Assembly: GCA_030618495.1 (NCBI GenBank)
Contig: JAUXDE010000022.1
Location: 1-18,312, forward strand
Source of the DNA: Clostridia bacterium
GTDB lineage: Bacteria > UBA6262 > WVXT01 > JAUXBS01
Direction: 5' to 3'
Length of the DNA: 18,312 bases
The position numbers and the translations under genes are program-made. The notes under the pieces are model-generated. The model had not been told where the DNA came from. It ran no database searches and worked only from the letters and a program-made list of their open reading frames with translations. Within the stretch, counting starts at the first letter, position 1. The number at the start of each line of letters is the position of its first letter. Of the stretch, positions 5,826-18,312 are shown piece after piece.

Positions 5826-7040
5826 ATGTATAAAAAATACTATTTAAGGATAGTTAAGGTACTAATATTTCTGATAATCTTATTAGTTATTAATTCATCT
5901 GCTGAAGAACCTTCAAGATTATCATTGAGGGAGGTACTTAAGATTGCCTTTGATTCCAACTCAGAAGTGATAACAGCAAGGAAGGAATTAGAATCAGCAA
6001 AGGCAGGGATTATTTCAGCAAGGGCTATTAGTAATCCTGAGTTTGGCATTGAGTTTCGCCCTTCCGGTATAGAGAGTTCACTCAGCCAGGAACTGAGTAT
6101 TTTGGGCAAGCGGGGCTTAAGCCGCAGGATTGCTGATACTGGTAAGGAGATATCTGAATGCAATCTTGATTCGGTCTGGATGGAAGTATCTTTTGAAGTT
6201 AAGAAGGTATATTACCAGATATTACTTGCCGAGAAAAAGAAAGAGTTCTCTGTTGAGAGCCTGGAACTGGCAAGGAATTTCCTGGACAGGACTTCCCAGC
6301 GCTATAATGTGGGGAAGGTTCTTAAAAATGAACTTTTGCGTGCTGAAATTGAAGTGTTCCGGGCTCAGAATGAAATCATGCTCTCAGATAAAGAGATATC
6401 CTCCAATAAGGATAAACTGAACTTCTTATTCGGCAGGCCTTCTTATGAGGAATATGAATGTACTGATAAACTCGTATATTCTAAGAAAGAGTTGGATTTA
6501 GATACTCTTATTAAACAGGCATTAATGAAAAGAGCGGATATTAAGGCTAAAAAGTTGGAACTCAAGTCTTCAGGACTTGAACTTAAGTTAGCAAGAAGAG
6601 AAAGGCTTTCAAATCCAACATTCAGTCTTTTAGCAGACAGGGATACAGGACAGGATTTTGTGTTTGGCGCGGGAGTGGAGATGCCCCTTCCTCTATGGTA
6701 TAGAAATAAAGGGGAGATTTCTGCAGTTAAGAGTGAAGGCGAGAAAACAGAACATCAGATAAAATCTCTTAAGAACCGGATAGAATTAGAGGTTAAAGAG
6801 GTATATAGGGAAATTAAGTTAGCTGACAGGCAGGTGGCTTTAATGAAGAAATCCGTAAAGAAAGCAAGTGAACTGTTATCTCTTATAGAGGTCCAGTACG
6901 CTGAAGGGAAGACGACTTTTTTAAGTTACTTAGAGGCTTTAATGGTATATAGAGAAGCAAACCTGGATTATTTAGAAGCCATTCTGGATTACCGGGTAAA
7001 ATTAGCATTATTAGAAAATAGAACAGGAGGAGAATTATGA
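5826..7040 (+). CDS. TolC-family outer-membrane channel of a metal efflux system (CusC/CzcC type)
   Basis: A 404-residue protein with a signal peptide (residues 1-26, ending in NSSA). The rest shows two OEP repeats rich in amphipathic helices: the first starts LSLREVLKIAFDSNSEVITA with NPEFGIEFRPSG and LSQELSILGKRG, the second around residue 220 onward with RADIKAKKLELKSSGLELKLA and LSNPTFSLLADRD. The segments 'SNPEFGIEF' and 'GAGVEMPLPLWYRNKGEISA' are characteristic of CzcC-like proteins. It forms the trimeric exit duct across the outer membrane for the RND pump encoded downstream. AAAGGA precedes the ATG. Its stop overlaps the start of the His-rich lipoprotein gene (ATGA), which shows tight operon structure. 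No lipobox is seen, so it is not lipid-anchored. Confidence 0.9.
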   Translation: MYKKYYLRIVKVLIFLIILLVINSSAEEPSRLSLREVLKIAFDSNSEVITARKELESAKAGIISARAISNPEFGIEFRPSGIESSLSQELSILGKRGLSRRIADTGKEISECNLDSVWMEVSFEVKKVYYQILLAEKKKEFSVESLELARNFLDRTSQRYNVGKVLKNELLRAEIEVFRAQNEIMLSDKEISSNKDKLNFLFGRPSYEEYECTDKLVYSKKELDLDTLIKQALMKRADIKAKKLELKSSGLELKLARRERLSNPTFSLLADRDTGQDFVFGAGVEMPLPLWYRNKGEISAVKSEGEKTEHQIKSLKNRIELEVKEVYREIKLADRQVALMKKSVKKASELLSLIEVQYAEGKTTFLSYLEALMVYREANLDYLEAILDYRVKLALLENRTGGEL

Positions 7041-7183
7041 AGAAGATTAGTTTGTTTTTAATGGTAGTTGTGATCTTTGTTGTTGTGATAGGATTGTTTG
7101 CCGGATGCGCTGTGGAAGAGGAACACACACATGGGCAAAAAGAGCAGCATAGCTCACATGACGGGTGTAATCACGCTCATTAA
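7037..7183 (+). CDS. 48-residue His-rich lipoprotein within the efflux operon
   Basis: A tiny gene starting inside the stop of the TolC-type gene (ATGA at 7037-7040) with a strong AGGAGG site 7 bp upstream. Residues 1-23 are a lipoprotein signal with lipobox LFAGC, so Cys24 would be lipidated. The mature part is only 25 residues and holds six histidines and one further cysteine (HTHGQKEQHSSHDGCNHAH). It resembles the His-rich head of the adaptor protein encoded 12 bp downstream (HTDAHASHEGHDEESC), so it may be a metal-capture peptide anchored beside the pump, perhaps derived from a duplicated adaptor N-terminus. The function is inferred; the coupling and lipobox make it very likely to be a real gene. 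Confidence 0.78.
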   Translation: MKKISLFLMVVVIFVVVIGLFAGCAVEEEHTHGQKEQHSSHDGCNHAH

Positions 7184-7195
7184 AGGAGACAAGTA

Positions 7196-8173
7196 ATGAA
7201 AAGATTTCATTTGTTGATTATTTTGGTATGTATAGGTCTGTTTTTTGGATGTTCCGGTAAGAATGAACATGAGGGGTGTGAACATACCGATGCTCATGCT
7301 TCTCACGAAGGCCATGACGAGGAGAGTTGCGGTGAGGATGTGGTTGAAGTTTTTTCTCACTTCATGGAGTTGCTTGGTTTAAAGACAGAAAAGGTTTCCT
7401 TAAGGAACCTTAAGAAAACAATAACCATAGTAGGTGAGATAGCAAGGGACTTTGAGAAGCCGGTTCATATCACTTCCGATATAGATGGGAAGGTGGTGAA
7501 GCTGAAAGCCCGTTTAGGAGACCATCATGTGAAACGCGGTGAATCTCTTGCCGTTATTGAAGGCGAAGACGGCAGGACAAAGGAGATAACATCACCTTTA
7601 GGCTGTATGATAATAGGAGAGCATGTTGAGGAAGGGGAAGAGGTAAGCGCGGATACTTCTCTTTTTACAATGGCGGATATGTCTAAGTTAAAAGCCAGTT
7701 TTGATGTATACCAGGAAGACCTTGGTTACATCAGGCCCGGCCAGAGTATCAAGGTGGAAACATCGGTATCTCCCGGCAAACTGTATCCTGCAAAGATTTC
7801 GTTTATTTCCCCGATTGTTGACGGTAAGACCCGGGCTGTTAAGATAAGGGTTGATATAGATAACTTTGACTGTAGTCTGAAACTGGGGATGTTTCTGAAA
7901 GGATACATAACACATACCGGAGCCTCTAAGTTAATTACCATTCCCGGTTCGGCTGTACAGGTGTGGGAGGGGAAGAAGGTTGTATTCATTCCAATTTCTG
8001 AAGATAAATACAGGATGGTTGAGGTTGAACTTGGTTCCGGTGAAGGGGGATATATAGAAGTGGTTTCCGGGGTTGAGGTTGGCGATGAAGTCGTAAGTTC
8101 CGGTAGTTTTCATTTAAAGTCGGAATTAAGGAGGAGATCAGCCGGTGATACCGGTCATGGTCATGCGCATTAG
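7196..8173 (+). CDS. RND efflux periplasmic adaptor (CusB/CzcB type), His-rich
   Basis: A 325-residue membrane-fusion lipoprotein. Residues 1-18 are a signal with lipobox LFFGC (Cys19). Residues 25-50 form a His/Glu-rich metal-binding segment (HEGCEHTDAHASHEGHDEE). Then come a barrel-sandwich hybrid (HITSDIDGKVVKLKARLGDH, later SPLGCMIIGEHVEEGEEV), a beta-barrel domain (ADMSKLKASFDVYQEDLGYI, later YPAKISFISPIVDGKTRAV) and a membrane-proximal domain. The C-terminus is GHGHAH, a second His cluster. There is no long alpha-hairpin between the two halves of the lipoyl-type domain, so this is a short-hairpin adaptor. It bridges the RND pump and TolC-type channel. AAAGGAGA precedes the ATG, and the pump gene follows 9 bp later. 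Confidence 0.9.
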   Translation: MKRFHLLIILVCIGLFFGCSGKNEHEGCEHTDAHASHEGHDEESCGEDVVEVFSHFMELLGLKTEKVSLRNLKKTITIVGEIARDFEKPVHITSDIDGKVVKLKARLGDHHVKRGESLAVIEGEDGRTKEITSPLGCMIIGEHVEEGEEVSADTSLFTMADMSKLKASFDVYQEDLGYIRPGQSIKVETSVSPGKLYPAKISFISPIVDGKTRAVKIRVDIDNFDCSLKLGMFLKGYITHTGASKLITIPGSAVQVWEGKKVVFIPISEDKYRMVEVELGSGEGGYIEVVSGVEVGDEVVSSGSFHLKSELRRRSAGDTGHGHAH

Positions 8174-8182
8174 GAGCACCAT

Positions 8183-11100
8183 ATGATTAAAAAAATAATA
8201 GAGTTTGGATTTAAAAACAGGTTCTTGGTGATAATAGCTTTTGTGGGTATATGTTTGGGGGGTATAATGTCCCTGTCAAACCTGCCCATAGACGCCTTCC
8301 CTGACATCAGTCCCAACATGGTGCAGGTGTTCGCAGAGGTCAACGGCATGGCTGCCGAAGAGGTTGAGCAGTTAGTTACCAGGCCGGTAGAACTGTCCAT
8401 GATGGGCATGCGGGGGGTAAAGAGTATCCGTTCGTTATCGTCTTTCGGGCTTTCCACCGTTAAGGTATACTTTGAAGACAACCTGGACATATATTTCACG
8501 CGGCAGTTGGTGTTTGAGAGGCTCGGCAGCGCTGAAGAGGGCATTCCCGAAGGCATAGATATGTCTCACGGCATTGAAATGGGTGCCATAGCATCGGGAA
8601 TGGGTAAGATTCTTACTTATTATATTAAGGGGGATGAATATGATACCACACAGCTGCGTACCATGCAGGAGTGGATTATTAAGCCGGCCCTGCAGTCTGT
8701 CTCTGGCGTTGCGGAGGTTATAAGTTTAGGAGGGCATATAAAGCAGTTCCGGGTGGACGTATCACCGTATAAACTACTGCGCTATGATGTTACTATAAAT
8801 GAAGTAATTGAAGCGGTAAGGGAGAACAACCTCAATACGGGCGCGGGTTTACTGAAGAATTATTCACAGGAATGGATTATAAGGAGTCTCGGGCTTGTTA
8901 AGGATGTTTCTGATATTGAAAACATAGTCCTGCGGTCATACCGGGGAAGCCCGGTATACCTCAAGGACGTTGCGGATATAAGCATAAGTCAGGCGATAAG
9001 GAGAGGGATTGCCTCTATGGATGGCGGTAAGGAAATCGTAGTGGGAGGCATATACAAGATTCATGGAGAGAACTCCTTTAAGGTTATAAGCCGCCTTAAT
9101 AAGCAGATGGATAAGATTAATAAAATACTCCCTTCAGGAGTAAGCATAGTACCGTTTTATGATCAGGGAATACTGGTTAAGGAAAGCATAAAGACCGTAA
9201 GGAATGCTCTCGGGCTGGGTTTGATACTGGTATGTATAGTTCTTTTTGTCTTTCTTGGCAAACTGAAGAACGCCCTGGTGGTGGTACTGTCACTGCCGTT
9301 TTCAATGTTGTTTGCGTTAATCATGTTCCGGGTTCTTCATATTCCAGGGGATTTGATATCCTTAGGAGGGCTGGCAATAGCGCTGGGTATGATAGTGGAC
9401 GCCAGCATCATCATGGTTGAGAAGATACATACTCTGAATATGGAATCTTCTGAATCTCTTTCAATGAAGGATGTTGTCATAGCCGCCGCGCAGGAGGTCG
9501 GCAGGCCGATGTTCTTTGCCATTGCCATTATTATCATGGTGTTTCTGCCAATATGGACTCTACAGGGTGTGGAAGGGAAGATGTTCAGGCCGCAGGCGTA
9601 CTCAGTAACTATTGCCATGTTAGGTTCGTTGATATACGCCATGCTCCTTGCTCCCATCCTTTACAGCCTCACCGTGAAGAACAGAAAGCCATCCAGAGAT
9701 AAGAGCGATAAGTTCATGCAGGGACTGCATGAGCGCTATAAATCAATGCTCCAGTTCCTTCTTCCAAGGCGTAAGAAGGTAGCCATAGTGACTGCCTGTC
9801 TGCTGCTTTTAGGCATAGGCGTGTTCTTTAACCTGGGTAAGGTGTTCGTACCCACCCTTCATGAGGGGAGCATAAACGTGCTGGCTCACATGGACCCCAG
9901 CATAGCCCTTGATGAAGCAGGCAGGGTTGCCGCAAAACTTGAAGAGGAATTGAGTACGTTCAGCGAGGTCAGGCAGGTAATCTCCGAGATAGGCTACGGG
10001 GACGTGGGGCCCCACGTCCACCATACCGACTACGCCTGTATAACCCTTGACCTTTATCCCAGGCATACGTGGAAGGCCGGGGGCACGCAGGAGCAGTTAG
10101 TTTCAAGGATGAGTGAGAAACTTAAAGGCTTCCCCGGGGTGTCCATAAGTTTCTCCCAGCCGATCCAGCACGAAGTGGATGAACTGGTCGGTGGGGCAGG
10201 GGCACAGGTGGCGGCAAAACTGTTTGGTTACGACATGGAAGTGCTTAAACAGAAAGCTGCGGAAATTGAAGGAGTTCTCTCCGGTATAGAAGGGGTCGCC
10301 GACCTCAGGGTGGAACAGGTAAGCGGTCAGGCGCACCTGCATATAGAGATAGACCGTAAAGAGATGGCCCGGCAGGGTATAAACATATCAAGGGTCCAGG
10401 AAATAATAAGGAGCAGTGTGGGGGGCATAAGGGCGGGCAAGGTATTTGAAGGTGAAAAGTCCTTTGATATATTCGTAAGGTTTGAGGAGTCCCACCGAAA
10501 CGATGTTGAAGCCATAAAGGATGTGTTGATATACGGCAGTGACGGTAACAGGGTACCCCTGTCGCGCATTGCAGAAATCAGGCTTGTAGAAGGGTTCAGG
10601 CAGATAAGCCACGAAAACGGCCAGAGGTATATATCCGTACTGAGCAACGTAAGGGGAAGGGACGTCGGGGGATTCGTTGAGGAAGCGCAGAAGGAAATAG
10701 AAGAATCAGTAACCCTTCCCCCCGGTTACTCTATTTCGTGGGGCGGGCAGTTTGAACTACAGCAGGCGGCCAACAGGAGGTTGATGGTTGTAATACCGAT
10801 TACACTGTTCATTATACTGTTCCTGCTTTACAGTTTCTTTAAATCATTCAAAGAAACGCTCCTCATTGCCCTCAACATACCTTTAGCCCTGGTGGGGGGA
10901 GTCTTTGCCCTGGCAATTACCGGCCAGGACCTGAGTATCCCCGCAACTATTGGTTTTATTGCTCTTTTCGGTATAGCCCTGCAGGACGGATTGGTGTTGA
11001 TATCCCGTTTCAAGTATCTGCACGCAAAGGGTTTAGGCTTGAAAGATGGGATAATTGAAGGTTCTCTTTCAAAATTGAGGCCTGTTTTAATGACTACAGT

Positions 11101-11257
11101 GACCACTGCATTCGGATTAATACCATTAATTATGTCTACCAGTCCGGGTTCTGAGATACAGAAACCACTGGCTATTGTAGTTGTGGGAGGGATAATATCA
11201 TCAACGGTACTGACCCTGTTTGTAATACCCACACTATACGGGTGGGTGAAGGAATAG
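8183..11257 (+). CDS. Heavy-metal RND efflux pump (CusA/CzcA family)
   Basis: A 1024-residue inner-membrane proton-driven exporter with the usual RND plan: N-terminal helix (FGFKNRFLVIIAFVGI), large periplasmic loops at about 35-335 and 555-865, and two bundles of membrane helices. The PxDAxPD motif (NLPIDAFPDIS) and FELQQAANRRL are typical of the HME group. In helix 4, GLAIALGMIVDASIIMVEK places Asp406 and Glu413 in the proton path; the position of CzcA Asp402 is Ala400, as in CusA. The C-terminal half is CzcA-like (KLRPVLMTTVTT instead of the CusA RPKAMT). The CusA Met triad is not recognisable; instead His611/His613/His614 (GPHVHHTDY) lie in the matching cleft segment. The metal is therefore uncertain. 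The size fits the family (about 1020-1050). Confidence 0.93.
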   Translation: MIKKIIEFGFKNRFLVIIAFVGICLGGIMSLSNLPIDAFPDISPNMVQVFAEVNGMAAEEVEQLVTRPVELSMMGMRGVKSIRSLSSFGLSTVKVYFEDNLDIYFTRQLVFERLGSAEEGIPEGIDMSHGIEMGAIASGMGKILTYYIKGDEYDTTQLRTMQEWIIKPALQSVSGVAEVISLGGHIKQFRVDVSPYKLLRYDVTINEVIEAVRENNLNTGAGLLKNYSQEWIIRSLGLVKDVSDIENIVLRSYRGSPVYLKDVADISISQAIRRGIASMDGGKEIVVGGIYKIHGENSFKVISRLNKQMDKINKILPSGVSIVPFYDQGILVKESIKTVRNALGLGLILVCIVLFVFLGKLKNALVVVLSLPFSMLFALIMFRVLHIPGDLISLGGLAIALGMIVDASIIMVEKIHTLNMESSESLSMKDVVIAAAQEVGRPMFFAIAIIIMVFLPIWTLQGVEGKMFRPQAYSVTIAMLGSLIYAMLLAPILYSLTVKNRKPSRDKSDKFMQGLHERYKSMLQFLLPRRKKVAIVTACLLLLGIGVFFNLGKVFVPTLHEGSINVLAHMDPSIALDEAGRVAAKLEEELSTFSEVRQVISEIGYGDVGPHVHHTDYACITLDLYPRHTWKAGGTQEQLVSRMSEKLKGFPGVSISFSQPIQHEVDELVGGAGAQVAAKLFGYDMEVLKQKAAEIEGVLSGIEGVADLRVEQVSGQAHLHIEIDRKEMARQGINISRVQEIIRSSVGGIRAGKVFEGEKSFDIFVRFEESHRNDVEAIKDVLIYGSDGNRVPLSRIAEIRLVEGFRQISHENGQRYISVLSNVRGRDVGGFVEEAQKEIEESVTLPPGYSISWGGQFELQQAANRRLMVVIPITLFIILFLLYSFFKSFKETLLIALNIPLALVGGVFALAITGQDLSIPATIGFIALFGIALQDGLVLISRFKYLHAKGLGLKDGIIEGSLSKLRPVLMTTVTTAFGLIPLIMSTSPGSEIQKPLAIVVVGGIISSTVLTLFVIPTLYGWVKE

Positions 11258-15224: not shown

Positions 15225-15419
15225 CTATAAGTATTTAACTCCTATGGTTTTGTTTAGTATTTTAATGGAATCAGTTGTTTTTTTCAATACTTTTTTATAA
15301 ATTTCATCTCTTTTCTTTTGTTTATGAGTTTTGGAATCATTTAATATAGACACTGCGCCGTATATATAGTCCAGGTTTTTTAAAATTGTTTTAATATCAT
15401 TATCTCTAATTTCAATCAT
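15225..15419 (-). CDS. 64-residue hypothetical protein overlapping the receiver gene
   Basis: A small, Lys-rich helical protein: IEIRDNDIKTILKNLDYIYG, then a long charged helix KQKKRDEIYKKVLKKTTDSI. Its ATG lies inside the last codons of the receiver gene (8-bp overlap), so it is likely to be translated by coupling. I do not recognise a family. It has no conserved histidine that would suggest a phosphotransfer role; it may bind the receiver. It converges with the DUF2156 gene, 86 bp away. Confidence 0.6.
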   Translation of the reverse strand: MIEIRDNDIKTILKNLDYIYGAVSILNDSKTHKQKKRDEIYKKVLKKTTDSIKILNKTIGVKYL

Positions 15420-15780
15420 TTTTTAATAGGTTCTCTATCTTTTTAGCAATGTTCTTTAAATTATAAGGTTTTGTTATATAATCATTTGCCCCGGCCTGGT
15501 TTCCTTTTGAGATGTCTTCCGGAGTAATTATTCTTGATGTCATTAATATCGGTAAATATTTATGTTTATCAATTTTTCTGATTCTTTTACAGACCTCATA
15601 GCCATCAATTCCCGGCATTTCAACATCAAGCACTATTAAATCGGGTGGAAGCTCATTCAATTCTATCAATGCTTCAACTCCATTAGATGCTTCTGATATC
15701 TCATATCCATTTTTTAATAGATAGGAGGACAGCATATTACTGAGTTTTGCTTCGTCATCAACTATTAGGATTCTTGCCAT
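15412..15780 (-). CDS. Stand-alone response-regulator receiver domain (CheY-like)
   Basis: A 122-residue single receiver domain. The acidic pocket is Asp8-Asp9 (ILIVDDE), the phospho-acceptor Asp52 (LIVLDVEMPG), the switch threonine Thr81 (PILMTSR), Tyr101 and the conserved Lys104 (YITKPY). No DNA-binding or enzyme domain follows, so it must signal through protein contacts. No histidine kinase is in the window. AAGGA lies about 11 bp before the ATG. The following 64-residue gene overlaps its stop. The MSRIITPEDISKGNQAGAND part replaces the more usual 'A' at the residue after the threonine (Ser82), a minor change. Confidence 0.9.
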   Translation of the reverse strand: MARILIVDDEAKLSNMLSSYLLKNGYEISEASNGVEALIELNELPPDLIVLDVEMPGIDGYEVCKRIRKIDKHKYLPILMTSRIITPEDISKGNQAGANDYITKPYNLKNIAKKIENLLKND

Positions 15781-16210: not shown

Positions 16211-16239
16211 TTGACAAAATGATGAGCTTATGGTATATT
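16211..16239 (+). promoter_or_regulatory. Promoter of the mini-MerR array
   Basis: TTGACA (16211-16216), 17-bp spacer, TATATT (16234-16239). Eleven of twelve consensus bases match. The start near 16246 sits at the edge of the first TAAAGT-N9-ACTTTA dyad, so a bound protein would block initiation or clearance. Confidence 0.78.
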
Positions 16240-16246
16240 ACAAACA

Positions 16247-16267
16247 TAAAGTATGCTGTTTACTTTA
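16247..16267. promoter_or_regulatory. MerR-array operator, site 1
   Basis: TAAAGT (16247-16252) and ACTTTA (16262-16267) with a 9-bp spacer, preceded by AAACA as at the other sites. It overlaps the start of transcription of the strong promoter just upstream. Confidence 0.65.
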
Positions 16268-16295
16268 GGATCCTTCCTAGGAGGATTATTTGAGA

Positions 16296-16373
16296 ATGCA
16301 GTTAAGCTGTTTAGTCTATGCTTTTTTATGTAGTAGTGATATATGCAGGGAATACTTATATCGCTATAAATAG
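16296..16373 (+). CDS. 25-codon leader ORF abutting a terminator
   Basis: A short ORF beginning MQLSCLVYAF, with three cysteines, and ending in YLYRYK. AGGAGG (16279-16284) lies 11 bp before the ATG; an in-frame TTG at 16290 would have better spacing (5 bp). Part of the ribosome site can pair with ATCCT at 16270-16274. The stop codon (16371-16373) is directly followed by the left arm of an intrinsic terminator (16374), so a terminating ribosome would cover that arm. This is the geometry of a leader peptide that controls attenuation. It could instead be a small functional peptide or a remnant of a duplicated gene. Confidence 0.5.
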   Translation: MQLSCLVYAFLCSSDICREYLYRYK

Positions 16374-16414
16374 ATCGGGTGTGCTAACTAATGTCGGCAC
16401 AGCCGATTTTTTTT
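16374..16414 (+). terminator. Intrinsic terminator (possible attenuator) ahead of the mini-MerR genes
   Basis: ATCGGGTGTGC (16374-16384) pairs with GCACAGCCGAT (16397-16407), 10 of 11 positions matching, and eight T residues follow (16407-16414). It would end a transcript of about 170 nt started at 16246. Confidence 0.85.
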
Positions 16415-16425
16415 GGTGTAAAACA

Positions 16426-16446
16426 TAAAGTAAGCAGTAGACTTTA
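16426..16446. promoter_or_regulatory. MerR-array operator, site 2
   Basis: TAAAGT-N9-ACTTTA inside AAAACATAAAGTAAGCAGTA. It follows a T8 run and GG, as site 4 does. TTGGTG (16413-16418) and TAGACT (16438-16443) stand 19 bp apart across it, the long spacing used by MerR activators; the boxes themselves are weak. Confidence 0.65.
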
Positions 16447-16465
16447 ATTATTTAAGGTGGCAACC

Positions 16466-16624
16466 ATGAGAACAGTTAAATACAAAAAGATGGAAATGGT
16501 ACGAGCAGGAAGTTGTTTAGAGGTTCAGTGTTTTTTTTTGAATCAAAACCTGAAGCAAGAAGTAGACTTTATGTTTAATCTATGTGGGTTGAATGAATCC
16601 AGAACGAAAGGAGAAAGAAAATGA
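16466..16624 (+). CDS. 52-residue ORF coupled to the first mini-MerR gene
   Basis: An ORF with a fair ribosome site (AAGGTGG, 5 bp before the ATG) whose TGA overlaps the start of the next gene (ATGA at 16621-16624). The product begins MRTVKYKKMEMVRAGSCLEV, contains a phenylalanine run encoded in a T9 tract, and ends in a basic tail (SRTKGERK). It shows no similarity to the MerR proteins. It contains operator site 3, so part of its sequence is constrained by the DNA site. I do not recognise it; it may be a coupling ORF instead of a folded protein. Confidence 0.45.
   Translation: MRTVKYKKMEMVRAGSCLEVQCFFLNQNLKQEVDFMFNLCGLNESRTKGERK
16551..16571. promoter_or_regulatory. MerR-array operator, site 3 (diverged)
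   Basis: TGAAGC-N9-ACTTTA, aligned with site 2 over AAAACxTxAAGxAAGxAGTA. It also follows a T9 run; TTGAAT (16539-16544) and TAGACT (16564-16569) are 19 bp apart. It lies inside the 52-codon ORF. Confidence 0.55.
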
Positions 16625-16863
16625 CAAAGAAATTCAGGCTGGAAAACGGGTTGTTGAAGATTGGGGAGATTGCAAGGGAATCGGGGATTAAAGAGTCAAC
16701 AATAAGGTACTACACAGAAGTTGGCCTGGTAAATGTTGCTGAAACGACAGAAAGCGGTTACAGGCTTTATGATAAGGATGAAACAGTGAGAGTGCTTAAG
16801 ACGATAAGAGAAGTGAATTCAAGTAGATTGACTCTTTCGCAGATAGTTGCTCAGATGGCGTAG
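16621..16863 (+). CDS. Mini-MerR DNA-binding protein 1
   Basis: An 80-residue protein that is only a MerR-type winged helix. LLKIGEIARESGIKESTIRY is the helix-turn-helix, YTEVGL the conserved turn, and GYRLYDKDETVRVLKTIREV the wing and following helix. MerR proteins normally have 110-150 residues or more, with a dimerisation coiled coil and a C-terminal effector site; here the protein ends after a short helix (LTLSQIVAQMA), so it has no effector-binding domain. It carries an N-terminal extension MTKKFRLENG shared with the next gene. AAAGGAG precedes the ATG. It overlaps the 52-codon ORF by 4 bp. DNA similarity to the next gene is high, which points to tandem duplication. Confidence 0.88.
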   Translation: MTKKFRLENGLLKIGEIARESGIKESTIRYYTEVGLVNVAETTESGYRLYDKDETVRVLKTIREVNSSRLTLSQIVAQMA

Positions 16864-16891
16864 TGTAAGAGATTTTTTTTGGACTAAAACA

Positions 16892-16912
16892 TGAAGTAGG
16901 CAGTAGACTTTA
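16892..16912. promoter_or_regulatory. MerR-array operator, site 4
   Basis: TGAAGT-N9-ACTTTA within AAAACATGAAGTAGGCAGTA, preceded by a T8 run and GG exactly as at site 2, but without the terminator hairpin. TTGGAC and TAGACT lie 19 bp apart across it. It is 23 bp upstream of the second mini-MerR start. Confidence 0.65.
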
Positions 16913-16934
16913 AGTTTCGGAAAGGAGACAAACG

Positions 16935-17177
16935 ATGACAAAGAGATTCAGATTGGAGAATGGACTGTTGAAGATTGGGGAGATTGCAAGGGAATCGGGA
17001 GTAAGGCAATCCACTATCAGGCACTACACTGAAGTGGGGTTGTTAAGCATTGCGGAAACGATGGAAAGCGGTTACAGGCTTTATGACAGGAATGAGACGC
17101 TCAGAAGGATTGGCTTGATTAAGGAAATCAGTACAAGCCGGCAGAGTTTGAACCAGATAAAGACTGCATTGGCATGA
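16935..17177 (+). CDS. Mini-MerR DNA-binding protein 2
   Basis: An 80-residue near-duplicate of the previous protein: the extension MTKRFRLENG, the helix-turn-helix LLKIGEIARESGVRQSTIRH, the turn YTEVGL and the wing GYRLYDRNETLRRIGLIKEI are conserved. Differences cluster in the recognition helix (VRQSTIRH against IKESTIRY) and the last helix (QSLNQIKTALA), so DNA targets or partners may differ slightly. There is no effector domain. AAAGGAG precedes the ATG, and its own copy of the dyad lies 23 bp upstream, suggesting local autoregulation or a response to its paralogue. The 46-bp gap to the third gene contains no dyad. Confidence 0.88.
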   Translation: MTKRFRLENGLLKIGEIARESGVRQSTIRHYTEVGLLSIAETMESGYRLYDRNETLRRIGLIKEISTSRQSLNQIKTALA

Positions 17178-17223
17178 GGAATAAAAACAGGCGTTAAAGA
17201 TTTCTTAATGAAAGGAGATTAGC

Positions 17224-17469
17224 ATGTCGGAGTTGATAAAAATAGGGAAGATGGCTGAACTGGCGGGGGTAAGGATTTCCACTATAAGGTATTACACGGA
17301 CATAGGGCTGGTTAAGGTAGCTGATACTACACCGGGAGGCCAGAAGCTTTTTGACAGCGAGGATACTCTTAAGAGGATACAGTTAGTGAAGAAGATAGGC
17401 AGGCAGAGATTGTCTCTTGATACCATAAAGAACGTAATAGATGACCACAAGGATGCGGAACTGAAGTAG
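17224..17469 (+). CDS. Mini-MerR DNA-binding protein 3
   Basis: An 81-residue MerR-type winged helix, more distant from the first two and lacking the RFRLENG extension. It starts MSELIKIGKMAELAGVRIST, then has IRYYTDIGLVKVADTTPGGQ, LFDSEDTLKRIQLVKKIGRQ and a slightly longer charged end (IDDHKDAELK). There is no effector or coiled-coil domain. The GYRLYD of the other two is changed to GQKLFD. AAAGGAG precedes the ATG. It ends 12 bp before the start of the secreted DUF2341 gene, so it is the regulator closest to the structural gene and probably co-transcribed with it. Heterodimers among the three are possible. Confidence 0.87.
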   Translation: MSELIKIGKMAELAGVRISTIRYYTDIGLVKVADTTPGGQKLFDSEDTLKRIQLVKKIGRQRLSLDTIKNVIDDHKDAELK

Positions 17470-17481
17470 GAAAGGGATAAA

Positions 17482-18312
17482 ATGTCGGAAAGCGGCAGTA
17501 GTAAAACAACTGAATATATGCAAGTACTGAGACCATTGTTAAATACAGTGCGTTCAGTCCTTGTACCGTTATTGGCAGGACTTGGAGTTCTTGCATTCAC
17601 GGCAACAGGTCATGCCGCATTCCCGGGAGACTGGGACTACAGCAAAGCGCTGTATATTTACAATTCCACGGAAACGGTAAACGATTACCAGTTCTTCATA
17701 AGCACAACGGATGTGGATACCGCCAACCTGATATCCCTGGAGCGACTTGAAGCGGATTACAGTGACCTGAGGTTTGCGGATGTTAACATATCAACAATGA
17801 GTTACTGGATAGATCCTGATATCACTACTCCCACGGGGTTCTGGGTAAGGGTATCTACACTAACAGGATATACGAGCACTAATATTAATATGTATTATGG
17901 CAATAGTTCCGCGGTAGCGGTATCAAGCGGAACAGATACCTTTTACTGGTTTGATGATTATTCAACCGACAAGACGGGCTCGTACAACCAGCTGAACATG
18001 CCTGATAGCTGGGGCGTATCGGCGGGACAGCTGTACATAACAATGGACGCCAGTGAGAGTTTCTGGCAGGATTCGCTCAACCCTGCCCCTCTGCTGTCAA
18101 TAAATGCCCCAGGATATGATTTCATTGCGCAGGTCAGGGTACAGGGAACGCCGGACCAGGACTACGAAGGCATTGGGCTCTACCTGTTCCAGGACGTTGA
18201 CAACTACTGTAAAGTCAACCATGGATTCGACACTGCTACGAATGAAATCATTGATTGGAAAGAGGAGGCCAGCGCAGTAAGTACCCTTATGGACTCGTCC
18301 TCATATTCGGGT
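17482..18312 (+). CDS. Secreted DUF2341-domain surface protein (3' end outside the window)
   Basis: An ORF of 277 codons that runs off the window end. The N-terminus has an unusually long charged/polar leader (about 25 residues, MSESGSSKTTEYMQVLRPLL) before the hydrophobic core (VLVPLLAGLGVLAFTATGHA), then a signal-peptidase-like HAA. Residues 48-160 are a DUF2341 domain: WDYSKALYIYNSTETVNDYQ, YSDLRFADVNISTMSYWIDP, TGFWVRVSTLTG and INMYYGNSSAVAVSSG. DUF2341 occurs in large extracellular proteins of Bacteria and Archaea. After FYWFDDYS comes a concanavalin/LamG-like region (SWGVSAGQLYITMD, FIAQVRVQGTPDQDYEGIGL). The ribosome site is weak (GGAAAGGG). It directly follows the mini-MerR genes and is probably their target or operon partner. 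Base composition is richer in G+C than the regulators. Confidence 0.82.
   Translation, partial: MSESGSSKTTEYMQVLRPLLNTVRSVLVPLLAGLGVLAFTATGHAAFPGDWDYSKALYIYNSTETVNDYQFFISTTDVDTANLISLERLEADYSDLRFADVNISTMSYWIDPDITTPTGFWVRVSTLTGYTSTNINMYYGNSSAVAVSSGTDTFYWFDDYSTDKTGSYNQLNMPDSWGVSAGQLYITMDASESFWQDSLNPAPLLSINAPGYDFIAQVRVQGTPDQDYEGIGLYLFQDVDNYCKVNHGFDTATNEIIDWKEEASAVSTLMDSSSYSG

Follow-up and report, generated by a model that had tools for sequence, protein, structure and literature searches.

A module that links a probable operator to MerR genes, and that lies ahead of surface-protein genes, is conserved between this Clostridia locus and its relatives. It would combine two known kinds of control, MerR regulators and roadblock attenuation, and is not a new kind of device. 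In the window, which is the entire 18,312-nt contig C105 of a 1.69-Mb assembly with 98% completeness, the module may form a negatively autoregulated operon, in which MerR would repress at the promoter operator and enhance termination at the first T-run unit, thereby gating a secreted surface protein. This reading is given about an even chance of being correct.

Anatomy of the locus

The features of the locus are listed below by coordinates and strand.

15412..15780, minus: lone 122-aa response-regulator receiver gene, divergently oriented, separated from the promoter by 430 bp
16211..16239, plus: sigma-70-type promoter TTGACA-N17-TATATT (score 11/12, TG preceding the -10), the only promoter and upstream of all operon genes
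16247..16267, plus: predicted operator copy 0, TAAAGTATGCTGTTTACTTTA, directly 3' of the -10, at about +2 to +22
16372..16414, plus: leader intrinsic terminator, stem ATCGGGTGTGC/GCACAGCCGAT, T8 tail at 16407-16414
16426..16446, plus: predicted operator of unit 1 (T8, 12 nt, operator)
16466..16624, plus: candidate 52-aa ORF with a ribosome site, 3' of unit 1 and enclosing unit 2
16531..16571, plus: unit 2, T9 (16531-16539), 12 nt, degenerate operator (16551-16571), without hairpin
16621..16863, plus: mini-MerR 1, class A, 80 aa, Pfam MerR_1/MerR
16873..16912, plus: unit 3, T8 (16873-16880), 12 nt, operator (16892-16912), hairpin not above chance
16935..17177, plus: mini-MerR 2, class A duplicate, 80 aa, Pfam MerR_1/MerR
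17224..17469, plus: mini-MerR 3, class C, 81 aa, Pfam MerR_1/MerR, without an operator of its own
17482..18312, plus: secreted protein, signal-like N terminus, DUF2341, DUF1349 match below threshold, running off the contig

A repeat search of the window recovered the four dyads of the original prediction as one 26-nt family (starts 16242, 16421, 16546 and 16887). Four copies reach an identity of at least 18/26, whereas 2000 first-order random sequences of matching composition averaged 0.0135 such copies and never contained more than 1. Perfect TAAAGT-N9-ACTTTA dyads stand at 16247 and 16426, and the copies at 16551 and 16892 are imperfect. Copy 0 (16247) is preceded by the promoter -10 and not by a T-run. 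The other three dyad cores (16427, 16552 and 16893) begin exactly 12 nt past the ends of T8, T9 and T8 runs, respectively, which agrees with the conserved spacer proposed earlier. The accompanying proposal that each dyad lies ahead of an ORF holds in part: the 16551 dyad is inside the 52-aa ORF, and neither merR3 nor the DUF2341 surface gene has a dyad of its own within the window. The stop codon of this candidate ORF overlaps the merR1 start (ATGA), and the ORF may encode a coupled leader peptide.

The leader terminator (-21.5 kcal/mol, z -5.4), which lies between the promoter and the regulators, has T-run 1 as its tail, and the leader carries one predicted operator at either end. The original prediction included neither the terminator nor the placement of probable operators at the promoter and again shortly beyond the terminator. 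Folding of the sequences preceding T-runs 2 and 3 of the window gave no hairpin above chance. All units 0-3 sit between the operon promoter and regulator genes, the downstream position that characterizes roadblock autoregulators. The T-run-dyad units are 75-80% identical to one another, and the class-A gene was probably duplicated together with its unit.

MerR_1 and MerR are the sole Pfam families above cut-off in the three regulators (E 1e-10 to 1e-13), consistent with the predicted run of three MerR-only genes of about 80 residues, and the surface-protein ORF indeed begins 12 bp past the third MerR stop. An AlphaFold model of MerR 1 (pLDDT 89) comprises an N-terminal helix, the wHTH and a short last helix at residues 72-79, and structure comparison matched it to the SoxR, MtaN and GlnR folds. 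The classical coiled-coil dimer helix and effector domain are absent from the window MerR proteins, which end at 80-81 aa. This absence had been noticed from the start; it is real but less anomalous than stated, since BldC (PMC5859096) and GlnR (PMC9249791) also lack such a helix. The operators do not occupy the classical MerR position within a 19-20 bp -35/-10 spacer; the spacer is 17 bp and the dyads lie downstream of the -10. Elsewhere in the window (5826-11257), an apparent RND efflux set was read from the translations, with an outer-membrane-factor-like protein, a membrane-fusion-like protein and a 1024-aa CusA-like pump.

Relatives within and outside the order

Two loci from another family of the order (f2; L070 and L071) contain a promoter, a leader of ~300 nt, a terminator (-40.9 kcal/mol in L070), T7, 12 nt, GAAGTAAGCAGTTCG/ACTTTAA and mini-MerRs A and B. 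In L070 these genes are followed by a class C mini-MerR and then by a secreted protein without a Pfam family, and L071 stops at the contig edge after mini-MerRs A and B. At both loci a second, reversed operator lies just upstream of the -35, so that two operators bracket the promoter and leader, and no receiver gene adjoins. L073 and L074 present one mini-MerR and another giant secreted protein, with the terminator CCGRGTCTCGTGACTCGG-T8, 12 nt and GAAGTGACACTGCTCACTTTT. The expected conservation of cluster and dyad is thus borne out, by tandem mini-MerRs with the dyad ahead of a giant secreted protein in another family and by the operator before Elusimicrobiota MerR and MerR-receiver genes. 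Conserved synteny extends to the mini-MerRs, the dyad and a secreted protein; DUF2341 as the conserved partner is not supported, since the secreted proteins differ among loci.

In the MerR tree, which was built from a short alignment and has many weak forks, both window class-A genes group with the A genes of L070/L071 (support 83/84), and window C is nearest to L070 C and to uvrB-linked copies. On this grouping, the tandem arrangement is probably older than the split of the two families.

Mini-MerRs also occur in other contexts. A fourth one belongs to the cell-division cluster mraZ, mini-MerR, rsmH, ftsL, ftsI, in the same genome (contig C86, L003 1025-3228) and in L072, with RNase P RNA upstream of the cluster (match in L072); the region preceding this mini-MerR showed no T-run-dyad unit. 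Single mini-MerRs lie within housekeeping operons (L077, L078, L079; L075, L076, L080, other family), namely uvrB-MerR-nadC-birA and oligopeptide ABC transporter-MerR-cca. The leaders of two surface loci (L070 3855-4170 and L073 2796-3075) have in common a hairpin at the 5' end and a stretch resembling GGGACTTTAGGGTAACATAGTGGYATC, possibly a structured RNA, for which no Rfam match was found.

Beyond the order, scanning genome contigs yielded 36 loci, most of them from Elusimicrobiota; the ~205-aa regulators scanned there consist of MerR_1 and Response_reg. The Elusimicrobiota upstream unit reads T6-T8, 11-14 nt (mostly 12) and RAAGTANGCAGT, often with a TTGACA promoter shortly before it and with the T-run preceded by a hairpin of unrelated sequence. 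Operator and MerR occur together in L105, L110, L114, L116, L118, L119 and others, and L070, L071, L097, L105, L111, L112 and L119 have a promoter like that of the window upstream of the operator. A second draw of 198 Elusimicrobiota genomes, 26 of them with a match (L135 and L140 uninformative), added the T-run-unit loci L129, L132, L138 and L144, among which L129 and L144 had lower scores and were identified by eye. At L099, L137, L141, L143, L145 and L147 the operator follows straight after the -10 with no T-run; the terminator part is therefore common, not universal. At L097 and L100 the operator follows the -10 in front of a mini-MerR gene, in the same place as window copy 0, and genes for secreted TPR and OmpA-like proteins follow. 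A MerR gene and then a secreted-protein gene is the arrangement at many loci. In Elusimicrobiota this MerR wHTH is usually fused to a receiver (L116, L119, L110, L106 and others) and often stands ahead of secreted-protein genes, at some loci ones for CHU_C, fn3 or FlgD-like proteins. No relatives of the locus were found in viral contigs, and searches of the open-access literature turned up no account of either this module or MerR-receiver regulators in Elusimicrobiota.

Motif specificity and hairpin enrichment

A 25-nt matrix was trained on nine short Elusimicrobiota sequences only, with the window and f2 sequences excluded. Among 1224 distinct T-run contexts, it ranked the window units 7, 13 and 16 and the f2 units 2, 3 and 6. 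Leave-one-out analysis of single Elusimicrobiota training loci gave only moderate ranks of 17-124 of 1224, a weakness to be expected with so few and short sequences, and L101, whose spacing differs and which is out of register in the matrix, failed (rank 938). Among the matches listed for the operator at 0-1 mismatch in 14 genomes, all fell at these MerR loci, with ~0.05 expected by chance. The pattern T-run+N6-9+AAAACATGAAGT occurred at MerR loci only (17 genomes; control 0), and T7+N9-13+AAGTANGC was confined to this window in its own genome. A regulon search of the same genome revealed no further site with 0-1 mismatch; an operator-like site with two mismatches lies near thrS.

Hairpins of -10 kcal/mol or below were present in the 40 nt before motif T-runs in 9/15 cases, compared with 9% of control T-runs, although the count includes the close relatives L070/L071 and L111/L112 as non-independent cases. 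The corresponding p of about 1e-6 (computed on 9/14) overstates the evidence, because the hairpin of L111 takes in part of the promoter and some of the loci are closely related. The hairpin sequences are unrelated between lineages, while the operator and its spacing from the T-run (12 nt mostly, 11-14 overall) are retained, and this persistence is the main argument for a functional link of terminator and operator.

Proposed mechanism, rival explanations and known systems

In the proposed mechanism, the one sigma-70 promoter would drive a short leader, the two class-A mini-MerRs, the class-C mini-MerR and the secreted surface protein, and the mini-MerRs would bind the AAGTANGCAGTNNACTT operator. 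A mini-MerR at copy 0 (about +2 to +22) would repress initiation. A polymerase halted by a DNA-bound protein has its active site roughly a dozen bases short of the obstacle. Since the operator of unit 1 lies 12 bp beyond the terminator U-tract, a mini-MerR bound there would stall polymerase with the active site over the U-tract, the place of termination, and more termination would result. Such transcription roadblocks are reviewed in PMC10310618. Once the mini-MerRs were released, the polymerase would read through into the surface gene. The MerR-receiver fusions of relatives and the lone window receiver, which is 27-39% identical to the receiver halves of the Elusimicrobiota fusions, suggest two-component phosphorylation as a plausible releasing signal, and the receiver gene 430 bp away is a possible partner of the mini-MerRs. 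Units 2 and 3, whose T-runs have no hairpins, would have arisen with the regulator duplication and may serve as weaker roadblocks or extra binding sites.

Conservation of the tandem mini-MerRs and dyad in relatives makes regulation of the downstream surface gene likely, and to this extent the original prediction is supported. A sequential cascade is not supported, as one promoter lies upstream of all genes and merR3 has no site. More broadly, the locus could represent an attenuation device that is widespread and so far undescribed: a MerR bound about one helical turn past an intrinsic terminator would gate termination of its own operon. Such a device would switch secreted surface proteins in Elusimicrobiota and related lineages, with input through a fused or, in the window, separate receiver and with tandem MerR duplications tuning the threshold; this wider proposal is regarded as less likely than not.

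The same anatomy might instead reflect plain autorepression, in which ordinary MerR operators would block initiation or act as a simple roadblock, the terminator would be an independent constitutive attenuator or the end of the leader, and the fixed spacing would come from common descent. The many relatives that lack a T-run and carry the operator immediately downstream of the -10, the hairpin-less T-runs of units 2 and 3, and the operator being the best conserved part of the module all fit this explanation. Against it, the T-run and the 11-14 nt spacing are kept across distant lineages in which the hairpin sequences are wholly different, and it is regarded as possible but somewhat doubtful. 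Oligomers like those of BldC, coating direct repeats (AAGTAAG-AAGTAAG) and docking on the narrow minor groove of the T-tract, with no role in termination, would account for the retention of hairpin-less T-tracts in units 2 and 3. The protein size and absent effector domain fit BldC (PMC5859096), and AAGTA direct repeats ~7-8 bp apart occur in L070, L073, L131 and L096; but the sites depart from the AATTXXXX(C) consensus of BldC, several of them form fair dyads (5-7/8 positions paired) and hairpins are enriched ahead of the T-runs, which makes such coating unlikely.

A riboswitch-like or antiterminator RNA, for example one in which transcript dyad 0 pairs with dyad 1, is very improbable. The window leader does fold far better than shuffles with these dyads paired (z -6.9), and the f2 leaders fold well and are conserved between two loci. 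However, the pairing follows from the repetition of palindromes and was set aside as not conserved, and no relevant Rfam match was obtained for the window region or the f2 leaders. The upstream dyad of L070/L071 lies before the -35 and hence is untranscribed, the Elusimicrobiota loci have a single copy of the dyad, and the L070 arms AAGTAAG/CGCTT show no covariation as a hairpin.

With regard to known systems, GlnR and TnrA recognize TGTNAN7TNACA, a 17-bp dyad whose length fits the window dyad. These Bacillota regulators resemble the mini-MerRs in having a MerR-like wHTH without a coiled coil and a palindromic site, which for the mini-MerRs is the predicted dyad operator; GlnR and TnrA monomers dimerize weakly on theirs (PMC9249791). 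Their small, weak dimer interface is formed by N-terminal residues, and the MerR 1 model also has an N-terminal helix; it aligns with GlnR and TnrA at Z 9.7-10.6 and rmsd 1.9-3.2, although the fit to SoxR, MtaN and other MerR proteins is as good or better. By contrast, the window mini-MerRs have no glutamine-synthetase-binding tail and next to no residues after the wHTH, and their operator differs in sequence and is tied to a terminator. BldC of Streptomyces is likewise a very short MerR-like wHTH protein without effector or dimer domain, with widespread homologues (PMC5859096), and in this the window proteins are alike. It binds head to tail on direct repeats, whereas the candidate sites here are mostly dyads of another sequence, and its sequence similarity to the window MerR is weak (hhalign 72%, 22% identity, with an approximate BldC query). 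BldC is absent from the structural matches listed for the MerR 1 model, which carries no weight for or against a relationship.

Roadblock autoregulation and trans-attenuation by downstream-bound regulators are known from other protein families. C.Kpn2I (PMC6237814) and YtgR of Chlamydia (PMC6504234), bound downstream of a promoter, stop the elongating polymerase and lower the full-length transcript of their own or a linked operon. The polymerase block was demonstrated in these cases and is inferred for the window, and the descriptions of both systems mention no intrinsic-terminator hairpin placed at a set distance before the operator. If the attenuation reading is right, protein roadblocks and intrinsic terminators would be joined in one compact module conserved across distant lineages, and the module would give an initial way into the regulation of large secreted proteins in uncultured bacteria. 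The series from MerR-receiver fusion through mini-MerR near a separate receiver to tandem mini-MerRs lets the question be asked of how a MerR protein functions without the dimerization helix.
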